From positions 1-64,000 of the forward strand of contig CAIOVE010000011.1 in assembly GCA_903861645.1 (NCBI GenBank): a DNA stretch of 64,000 nucleotides, given 5' to 3'. Positions 1 through 6,129 of the stretch are shown here, piece after piece (the stretch's first letter is position 1; every line of letters begins with the position of its first letter). Below the pieces are notes generated by a model. The model was given only the letters and a program-made list of their open reading frames with translations, searched no databases and was not told the origin of the DNA. A program made the translations under genes and the position numbers. This DNA is from an uncultured Hyphomicrobiales bacterium. GTDB taxonomy: Bacteria > Pseudomonadota > Alphaproteobacteria > Rhizobiales > Beijerinckiaceae.

Positions 1-407
<407 letters not shown>

Positions 408-445
408 GTTTCAGTTTTTCATTTTCAATACACGACACTAACTAA

Positions 446-697
<252 letters not shown>

Positions 698-715
698 GCC
701 TCCACGCACCGCTGC

Positions 716-750
716 GGACGGCGGGCATGTGTCCCCGTCCCAGGTTTTTT
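716..750 (+). other. Intercistronic hairpin with T-run between atpE and atpF
   Basis: Bases 716-740 can fold into a GC-rich stem (GGACGG..GGG pairing with CCCC..GTCC, one bulge) followed by six T at 745-750. It looks like an intrinsic terminator or an mRNA-stabilising hairpin after atpE, the most highly expressed cistron. Since atpF follows 15 bases later, partial termination or differential stability is more likely than a full stop. This is inference from the fold only. Confidence 0.45.
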
Positions 751-764
751 GAGAGGAACGTACC

Positions 765-1238
765 GTGAATCTGAACGCAACGTTGTTTGCGCAGACGATC
801 GTTTTCATCATCCTGGCCCTGGTCACGATGAAGCTGATCTGGCCGAACCTGATCACGGCGATCGAAGAACGCAGGAAGAAAATTGCTGACGGCCTGGCTG
901 CTGCCGAAAAGGGCAAGTCCAGTTTGCAGGATGCGGAAGTGCGCATCCGCCAACTTGAAGTGGAAGCCCGCGCCAAGGCCCAGGAAATCCTGGCCCAGGC
1001 CGACAAGCGCTTTGCCGCCGTCGTTGACGAATCGAGGACTGCCGCCAAGGCGGAAAGCGACCGCCTGATCGCGGCTGCGAAGGCCGAGATCGACAGCGAA
1101 ATCCAGCGTGCCAAGGACGCCTTGCGCGACCAGGTCGCTGCGCTGGCGGTTGCCGGTGCGGAGAAGATCCTGCGCCGTGAAGTCAATGCCCAGGCCCACG
1201 CCGACCTGCTCGGACAACTGCGTCAGGAGCTGCGCTAA
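765..1238 (+). CDS. atpF: ATP synthase F0 subunit b
   Basis: 157-residue peripheral stalk subunit: one N-terminal membrane helix (about residues 5-25) then a long charged, Ala-rich coiled coil that reaches F1. The start is GTG at 765, supported by GAGAGG about 8 bases upstream and by the usual N-terminus immediately before the membrane helix. The length matches the single b subunit of beta/gammaproteobacteria; alphaproteobacteria usually have paired b and b' genes. atpH follows after 3 bases. Confidence 0.95.
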   Translation: MNLNATLFAQTIVFIILALVTMKLIWPNLITAIEERRKKIADGLAAAEKGKSSLQDAEVRIRQLEVEARAKAQEILAQADKRFAAVVDESRTAAKAESDRLIAAAKAEIDSEIQRAKDALRDQVAALAVAGAEKILRREVNAQAHADLLGQLRQELR

Positions 1239-1241
1239 GCC

Positions 1242-1775
1242 ATGGCTGAAGCCGCCACCATTGCCCGTCCCTATGCCGAGGCGGCTTTCCGCCTTGCCGA
1301 GGACAAGGGCACGATCGCAGGCTGGTCTGCCGCGCTGTCCAGGCTGGCTGTCGGCGCCGAATCCCCGGAGCTTGTGCAGCTTTTGGGCGATCCGCGCATT
1401 GCCCCGGCGCAGCTTGCCGAGCTGCTGGTTTCGGTCTCTGCAGATAAGGATCCCGCGCTGGGCCAGTTCGTTGCCACGCTGATCGAAAACAAGCGCGTGT
1501 CCGCGCTACCTCTGGTGCATGAGCAGTTTGAAGCGCTGAAGAACAGGCGCGAGAGCATCGTTGACGCCCAGATCGATTCCGCGCTGCCGCTGAATGACGC
1601 GCAACTGGCCGAGCTGGTGTCCGGCCTCGAGACCCGCTTCAAGCGCAAGATCCGCCCCCAGGTCAGCATCGATCCCGAGTTGATCGGCGGTGTCGTCGTC
1701 CGGGTTGGCGACGAAGTGATCGACGGTTCAGTCCGCGGCAAGCTCGCCGGCATGGCAGCCGCCCTAAAGAATTAA
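1242..1775 (+). CDS. atpH: ATP synthase F1 subunit delta
   Basis: 177-residue delta subunit linking the top of F1 to the b stalk. The N-terminal helical domain begins with the family motif ARPYAEAAF. The C-terminal region has the typical [20 protein letters not shown] pattern. Length and sequence are beta/gammaproteobacterial; alphaproteobacterial delta is usually a little longer. It lies 3 bases after atpF and 31 bases before atpA. Confidence 0.95.
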
Positions 1776-1806
1776 GCTCAGTTTCGTAGAATTCAAGGAA
1801 ACCACA

Positions 1807-3315
1807 ATGCAACAGCTGAAACCTTCCGAGATCAGTGAACTGATCAAGAGCAAGATCCAGAATCTTGCCCTGTCGGCCGAAGCACGCACCCAGGGCACCG
1901 TCGTATCGGTGACCGACGGCATCTGTCGCGTGCACGGACTGTCAGACGTCATGCAGGGCGAAATGCTGGAGTTCCCGAATAACACCTTCGGCCTCGCCCT
2001 CAACCTCGAGCGCGACTCTGTCGGCGCGGTGATTCTGGGTGAGTACGAGCACATCTCCGAAGGCAATCCGGTCAAGTGCACCGGCCGCATTCTGGACGTG
2101 CCGGTCGGCCCCGAACTGCTCGGCCGCGTCGTGAACGCCCTGGGCCAGCCGATCGACGGCAAGGGGCCGATCAACGCCAAGGAACGCGACGTCATCGAGA
2201 AGGTTGCTCCCGGTGTGATGTGGCGCAAGTCCGTGGACCAGCCGGTGCAGACCGGCCTGAAGTCCATCGACGCCATGGTGCCCGTCGGCCGCGGCCAGCG
2301 TGAACTGATCATCGGCGACCGCCAGACCGGCAAGACCGCGGTGGCTGTCGACACGATCATCAACCAGAAGGGCAAGGACCTGATCTGCATCTACGTGGCA
2401 GTCGGCCAGAAGGCTTCGACCGTTGCCAACGTGGTGAGGAAGCTCGAAGAGCACGGCGCGATGGCCTACACCATCGTCGTTGCCGCCACCGCGTCCGAAT
2501 CCGCCGCGATGCAGTTCATTGCGCCGTACTCCGGCTGCACCATGGGCGAATACTTCCGCGACCGCGGCCAGGACGCGCTGATCATTTATGATGACTTGAC
2601 CCGCCAGGCCTGGGCGTATCGCCAGATCTCCCTGCTGCTGCGCCGCCCGCCGGGCCGCGAAGCCTATCCCGGCGACGTGTTCTATCTCCACTCGCGCTTG
2701 CTGGAACGCGCCGCGAAGCTCTCCGACGCCAACGGCGCCGGCTCGCTGACCGCGCTGCCCGTCATCGAAACGCAGGCCAACGACGTGTCGGCCTACATTC
2801 CGACCAACGTGATCTCGATCACCGACGGCCAGATCTTCCTCGAAACCGATCTGTTCTATCAGGGCATCCGCCCCGCCGTGAACGTCGGTCTGTCGGTGTC
2901 GCGCGTCGGTTCATCGGCGCAGACCAAGGCGACCAAGAAGGTCGCCGGCAAGATCAAGGGCGAGCTTGCCCAGTATCGCGAGATGGCCGCCTTCGCGCAG
3001 TTCGGCTCCGACCTCGACGCGGTGACGCAGCGCCTGCTGAACCGCGGTTCGCGCCTGACCGAACTCCTGAAGCAGCCGCAGTTCGCGCCGCTGAAGATGG
3101 AAGAGCAGTGCTGCGTGATCTACGCCGGCGTGAACGGCTATCTCGACGGCATTCCGGTCAACCGCGTGCGCGCGTTCGAGGATGGCCTGCTGGCCACCCT
3201 GCGCACGAGCAACGCCGCCCTGTTGAACTCCATCCGCGATTCGAAGGATCTTTCCGACGCCGACGCGGCCACGTTGAAGAACGTGGTCGAGTCCTTCGCC
3301 AAGAGCTTCTCGTAA
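1807..3315 (+). CDS. atpA: ATP synthase F1 subunit alpha (chimeric sequence)
   Basis: 502-residue regulatory nucleotide-binding subunit of F1. Walker A is GDRQTGKT (residues 170-177). The protein is a mosaic. Residues 1 to ~275 follow the beta/gammaproteobacterial pattern ([30 protein letters not shown]). From ~305 on the sequence is alphaproteobacterial ([12 protein letters not shown] in place of the longer beta/gamma loop there, [40 protein letters not shown]). The switch lies in the nearly invariant stretch [16 protein letters not shown] to [12 protein letters not shown], about 2630-2720. The frame stays open and no motif is lost, so the hybrid could be functional, but an assembly join at a conserved site is at least as likely. 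Confidence 0.93.
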
Positions 3316-3377
3316 TCACCTTTTCCTTCCACGAGACCCTCCTGGCCTGACGGCGAGGAGGGGGAGACGCGCGGACA

Positions 3378-5700
<2,323 letters not shown>

Positions 5701-5727
5701 GACGTCGCCGGAGTCTGGAGCATCGTC

Positions 5728-6129
5728 ATGGCCGCTTTCCACTTTGAACTCGTGTCGCCCGAAAAGCTGTTGTTCTCGGGCGACGTGGAGGCCGTTGGCG
5801 TTCCCGGCGCCGAGGGCGACTTTCAGATGCTCAAGGGCCACGCGCCGCTGATGTCGATGTTGCGGCCCGGCGTCGTCACCGTCGACGAAAGCGCGTCGAA
5901 GTCGACGAAGCTTTTCGTGCGCGGCGGTTTCGCCGAGGTCTCGGCGAGCGGCCTGACGATTCTCGCCGAACAGGCGATCCCCCTTGCCGATCTCGACACG
6001 GCGCGCATCGACGCCGAGATCAAGGATCTCGAGGAAGACCTCGCGGACGCCCAGACGGCCGAGGCCCGTCAGGCGGCGAGCGAAAAGCTTTCCCACGTCA
6101 AGGAACTGAAGGCCGCGCTGAAGCTCTGA
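5728..6129 (+). CDS. atpC: ATP synthase F1 subunit epsilon
   Basis: 133-residue epsilon subunit, coupling the c ring to the central stalk and inhibiting ATP hydrolysis. The N-terminal beta-sandwich ([35 protein letters not shown]) is typical. The C-terminal part is a helical hairpin rich in Ala/Glu/Lys. It is the last gene of the operon; a strong terminator follows 25 bases after the stop. Confidence 0.97.

Follow-up and report, generated by a model that had tools for sequence, protein, structure and literature searches.

Gene content at the start of the contig

The window, which is the whole stretch of 64,000 nucleotides analyzed here, comprises bases 1-64000 of contig C11 (114,876 bases). 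The genome has 4,182,615 bases in 108 contigs, is rated 100% complete and 1.1% contaminated, and appears to be a metagenome bin. The window begins at base 1 of the contig, so the contig end is located 2.6 kb from the switch within AtpA that is described below. The first part of the window (1..2631, forward strand) is a foreign fragment of beta/gammaproteobacterial type that contains the 3' part of atpB followed by atpE, atpF, atpH and codons 1-275 of atpA. The atpB gene (subunit a, 3..407, forward strand) is truncated by the contig start and matches PF00119 with 98.5 bits at profile positions 98-216 only. Downstream on the same strand are atpE (subunit c, 455..697; PF00137, 53.4 bits), atpF (subunit b, 765..1238; PF00430, 97.4 bits) and atpH (delta, 1242..1775; PF00213, 158.6 bits), all of them foreign. 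The atpA frame (1807..3315, forward strand) is chimeric; it is foreign up to base 2631, and host sequence begins somewhere within 2632-2663. The host sequence that follows (2664..6129, forward strand) includes the remainder of atpA and three genes on the same strand that correspond by family to atpG (3378-4250), atpD (4273-5700) and atpC (5728-6129).

The two sides of atpA have different DNA relatives. For window 1-2631, the eight best matches listed are all betaproteobacterial with an identity of 66-82% by piece, and a Rhodocyclales locus (L027) aligns to window 3-2630 unbroken at 71.7% identity. This agrees with the first-pass annotation, in which the upstream subunits a, c, b and delta had been called beta/gamma type. 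After base 2663 the best matches are contigs of the same genus as the host; three of these (L125, L126 and L131) have an identity of 81-83% over 3.4-3.5 kb, and a fourth (L130) has an identity of 84% over 3.0 kb. The tetranucleotide distance of window 1-2631 to the host profile is 0.379, compared with a mean of 0.195 (sd 0.036) for 46 host segments, none of which is as distant (0/46) and most of which themselves contributed to that profile. The host part at 2664-5294 likewise deviates, with a distance of 0.268; therefore, composition alone is a weak argument and is not relied on.

The type switch within AtpA

The AtpA protein (502 aa) is encoded by a single open frame that runs across the junction. 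It was compared with 40 alpha-type proteins (19 named records and 21 relatives) and 61 beta/gamma-type proteins. The 61 beta/gamma and 19 alphaproteobacterial loci were selected by likeness to the hybrid, as the top 80 out of at least 594. One record titled Proteobacteria (L030) was unlabelled at first and was counted as alpha because of its placement in the tree, and three partial loci (L116-L118) were excluded from the diagnostic-site comparison. In this set 69 positions discriminate alpha-type from beta/gamma-type AtpA. Residues 1-275 of the window protein have the beta/gamma state at 45 of 47 diagnostic sites, the alpha state at one and neither state at one. Residues 276-502 have the alpha state at 21 of 22 sites, the beta state at none and neither state at one. 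The final beta-type site is residue 269 and the earliest alpha-type site is residue 304. The longer loop that beta/gamma AtpA carries after LLERAA is missing from the window protein, as had been claimed. The sequence thus truly switches type in the middle of the gene, to an extent that chance could not come near to producing. The earlier view that the rest of AtpA is alphaproteobacterial together with gamma, beta and epsilon also holds, given the state of the C-part and the same-genus DNA matches downstream.

The change was said to fall in an almost invariant stretch, and the mean identity to both groups is 1.00 (rounded) over residues 276-300. The protein data alone allow any position of the join from codon 269 to codon 304.

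Separate trees of the two parts place them in different groups. Of the 104 loci supplied, 103 were kept in the N-part tree and 102 in the C-part tree (105 and 103 rows in total), since loci covering less than 85% of the query part were dropped; one atpA fragment of the same-genus relative G017, on its contig C308, is absent from both. The N-part of the window is on the beta/gamma side of a branch with 100/100 support and is inside no smaller starred set. The C-part pairs with G017 with a support of 99/84. The C-part tree also places several records away from their titles. Two metagenome-assembled genomes titled Bordetella parapertussis (L008 and L011) have an AtpA that is apart from that of Bordetella (L065), and one titled Akkermansia muciniphila (L083) groups with Limnohabitans. 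Because of this grouping, the three titles look misassigned.

Host ATP synthase genes on other contigs

When the hybrid AtpA was searched against the genome, there were four matches. Two are on C11 (the gene itself and that of the beta subunit), one is a distant ATPase on C25 and one is on contig C98 (151,471 bases). The last match (C98:3-875, minus strand) covers query residues 3-285 and ends at the contig end. The tail of C98 consists of a gpsA-like gene, a native atpH (C98:893-1405; PF00213) and 292 codons of atpA. Of the 47 diagnostic sites up to residue 285, 46 are in the alpha state and none in the beta state in this N-part, which groups with the same-genus relative G015 with a support of 100/94. 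Apart from the one on C11, no atpA second half, of beta type or otherwise, was found in the AtpA search of the contigs of this genome.

The 32 bases at 2632..2663 (forward strand) are identical to the terminal 32 bases of C98 (C98:1-32, minus strand). This word is present at these two places only in the genome, and the base directly before it (2631) differs between C98 and the window. On this identity, the join is located within 2632-2663, in the stretch common to the C98 end.

The host also has its own F0-type genes on contig C85. These include atpB (C85:61499-62128; PF00119, profile positions 3-217), atpE (C85:61204-61392; PF00137) and two b-type genes (PF00430), which are presumably b and b', as in the alphaproteobacterial layout. 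Host copies of every foreign subunit are thus present elsewhere, with a, c and b on C85 and delta on C98. The first-pass annotation had proposed looking for a host atpHAGDC elsewhere together with a separate F0 operon, and this check was decisive: the F1 genes are split between C98 (delta and the first part of alpha) and C11 (the rest of alpha, gamma, beta and epsilon), and the F0-type genes are on C85. When the three contigs are read jointly, the host matches the split ATP synthase of Alphaproteobacteria, which has F1 as atpHAGDC and a separate F0 operon. No difference from that layout was found; the host operon has simply been cut and wrongly joined during assembly. Two ATP synthase units are reported in 89.1% of Alphaproteobacteria (PMC5709465).

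The linkage of C98 to C11 is supported by the gene order on same-genus contigs together with the shared 32 bases. Contigs of five same-genus genomes were compared with the open reading frames from the first 20 kb of C98 and of C11. On the contigs of G005 and G016, the C98 genes, atpH-A-G-D-C and the C11 genes are collinear in that order. On the G007 contig, the C98 and C11 genes are on opposite sides of an intact atpHAGDC and the block on the C98 side is inverted. In G003 the C11 genes are upstream of the operon in the place expected for C98, and apart from atpH that contig showed none of the C98 genes; this arrangement is neither for nor clearly against the linkage. The upstream sequence covered for the G013 contig is too short to place the C98 genes. 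Of the 24 relative loci, 17 show an overlap of 28-32 bases between their best match to the C98 tail and that to C11 from base 2632 (exactly 32 bases in 13, 31 in three and 28 in one). In the other loci the best C11 match begins further downstream (six) or there is none (one). This overlap is weak proof of linkage because any atpA first half cut at this point would abut in the same way without a gap.

Origin of the join

The apparent hybrid ATP synthase is almost certainly a misassembly in which foreign DNA was joined to host DNA within atpA. Three observations support a false join: C98 ends in the shared 32 bases and carries the first half of the host gene, same-genus contigs put C98 and C11 genes on either side of one operon, and contig C85 carries a separate set of F0 genes that belongs to the host. 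The two sides of the join also come from different organisms according to the diagnostic sites, the trees, the DNA matches and the composition. Of the two readings that had been offered, the false join is borne out by these observations, and the same evidence stands against homologous recombination and a hybrid enzyme. One point was counted against the false join with respect to the donor contig, namely that the best DNA matches listed for the foreign piece are only 66-82% identical by piece.

In an assembly of a mixed community, the host, which is an alphaproteobacterium, and a beta/gammaproteobacterium would share at least 32 identical bases in the most conserved part of atpA. The assembler may then have joined the foreign incoming path, with 2.6 kb of a B-E-F-H-A cluster, to the host outgoing path C11, and the host's incoming path C98 would have been left stopping where the shared stretch ends. 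The chimeric frame is open because the crossing hits the same codon in both genes. A crossing in a k-mer graph is the probable cause, and the side from which each path came is presumably as given here. False paths are described as possible in such graphs (PMC8172020). The exact 32-mer is present in 5 of 61 beta/gamma, 7 of 19 alphaproteobacterial and 4 of 24 relative loci, and additional loci carry it at one or two mismatches. Since it occurs in both beta/gamma and alphaproteobacterial loci, it is an ordinary crossing point of an assembly graph. Breaks near this stretch are also found in two other genomes. In G015, contig C104 (L128) ends within atpA, 15 bases past the 32-base stretch, and in G017 there are two atpA fragments that disagree. 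With the G015 contig end, this stretch is thus a recurrent site of assembly breaks. The case resembles known chimeric contigs of k-mer metagenome assembly, in which sequences of two organisms likewise meet where they are identical and the true partner left orphaned, here C98, likewise stops there. There is no difference in kind; the present join is inside an essential gene and the frame was kept open.

Another explanation is a mixed bin, in which C98 and C11 would not truly be partners and either of them would come from another organism. This seems very improbable. It is favored by G017 contig C63 (L130, G017:C63:1-6543), in which the first 401 bases of the reverse complement are identical to the C98 tail at 399 of 401 positions and are followed by a second half that is different from C11 (about 84% identical). 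By itself, this contig would point to a different partner for C98. The two host halves also have different nearest relatives (G015 for the C98 part and G017 for the C11 part), although neither genome has both atpA halves in the trees, as the second half of G015 and the first half of G017 on C308 are absent. The different arrangement in G003 points in the same direction. Against a mixed bin are the collinearity in G005 and G016, the flanking genes in G007, and the presence of a single alpha-type N-part and a single C-part in a genome with such high completeness and low contamination. The C98 end also agrees with C11 at 32 of 32 bases, whereas G017 C63 differs from C98 inside this stretch. Even if the bin were mixed, window 1-2631 would remain a false join.

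The G017 contig C63 was also considered as a second beta/alpha hybrid, as the part that corresponds to residues 161-502 is 86% identical to the query. It was rejected; its first part is of alpha type like that of C98, and therefore it gives no support for a real beta/alpha hybrid. The second atpA fragment of G017, on C308, overlaps C63 yet disagrees with it. C63 has the appearance of a further false join in this conserved stretch or of the product of a mixed bin. Neither this contig nor the differing nearest relatives of the two halves rescue the beta/alpha hybrid.

A real hybrid would require homologous recombination to have joined a foreign segment with F0, delta and the first part of alpha to the host atpA, with a mosaic ATP synthase as the result. 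In favor of this, the junction does not interrupt the frame and the switch is in an almost invariant stretch, where a crossover would also be expected. However, the host half that would have been replaced is still present at the C98 end and breaks off in the same 32 bases. On three contigs of the genus, a single intact operon has C98 genes on one side and C11 genes on the opposite side (collinear on two of them), and the foreign segment is truncated and located where a contig begins. Relatives also argue against recombination. A near-full-length AtpA is present in 21 of the 30 relatives searched (the other nine have a partial one or none), and none of the 21 is a hybrid; all of them are in the alpha clade for both parts. 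The N-part was also searched against 297 genomes of the order, of which 275 have a match at E <= 1e-90, and among the best matches listed there is no further beta-like N-part on a hybrid gene. Recombination is therefore extremely unlikely to explain the hybrid.

Among the matches listed in that search, G219 is the only genome besides this one that exceeds 65% identity to the N-part. Its contig C55 (74% identity) was evaluated as a second hybrid and rejected, as the gene is of beta/gamma type throughout and has the loop. This beta/gamma atpA (G219:C55:2464-3276, L136) coexists with a second atpA on contig C11 of G219, which has 61% identity to the N-part, a level typical of alpha-type copies. 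The beta/gamma gene is probably contamination of the G219 bin.

A living strain with a mosaic operon (beta-type F0, delta and half of alpha with host gamma, beta and epsilon), in which the C98 end represents an additional native copy and the assembly merged the second half of that copy with C11, is hardly credible.

A false join is thus established as far as sequence data allow, and the idea of a hybrid enzyme should be abandoned. Users of the genome should mask window 1-2631 or handle it as foreign. Any tree or structure derived from this AtpA, or from subunits a, c, b and delta as encoded on this contig, would be wrong. The AtpA hybrid is not a real feature and has no biological significance; its use is only as a caution that a genome rated 100% complete and 1.1% contaminated can hide an in-frame chimeric essential gene that the scores miss. 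Contig ends in the same conserved stretch are a quick means to expose such chimeras.
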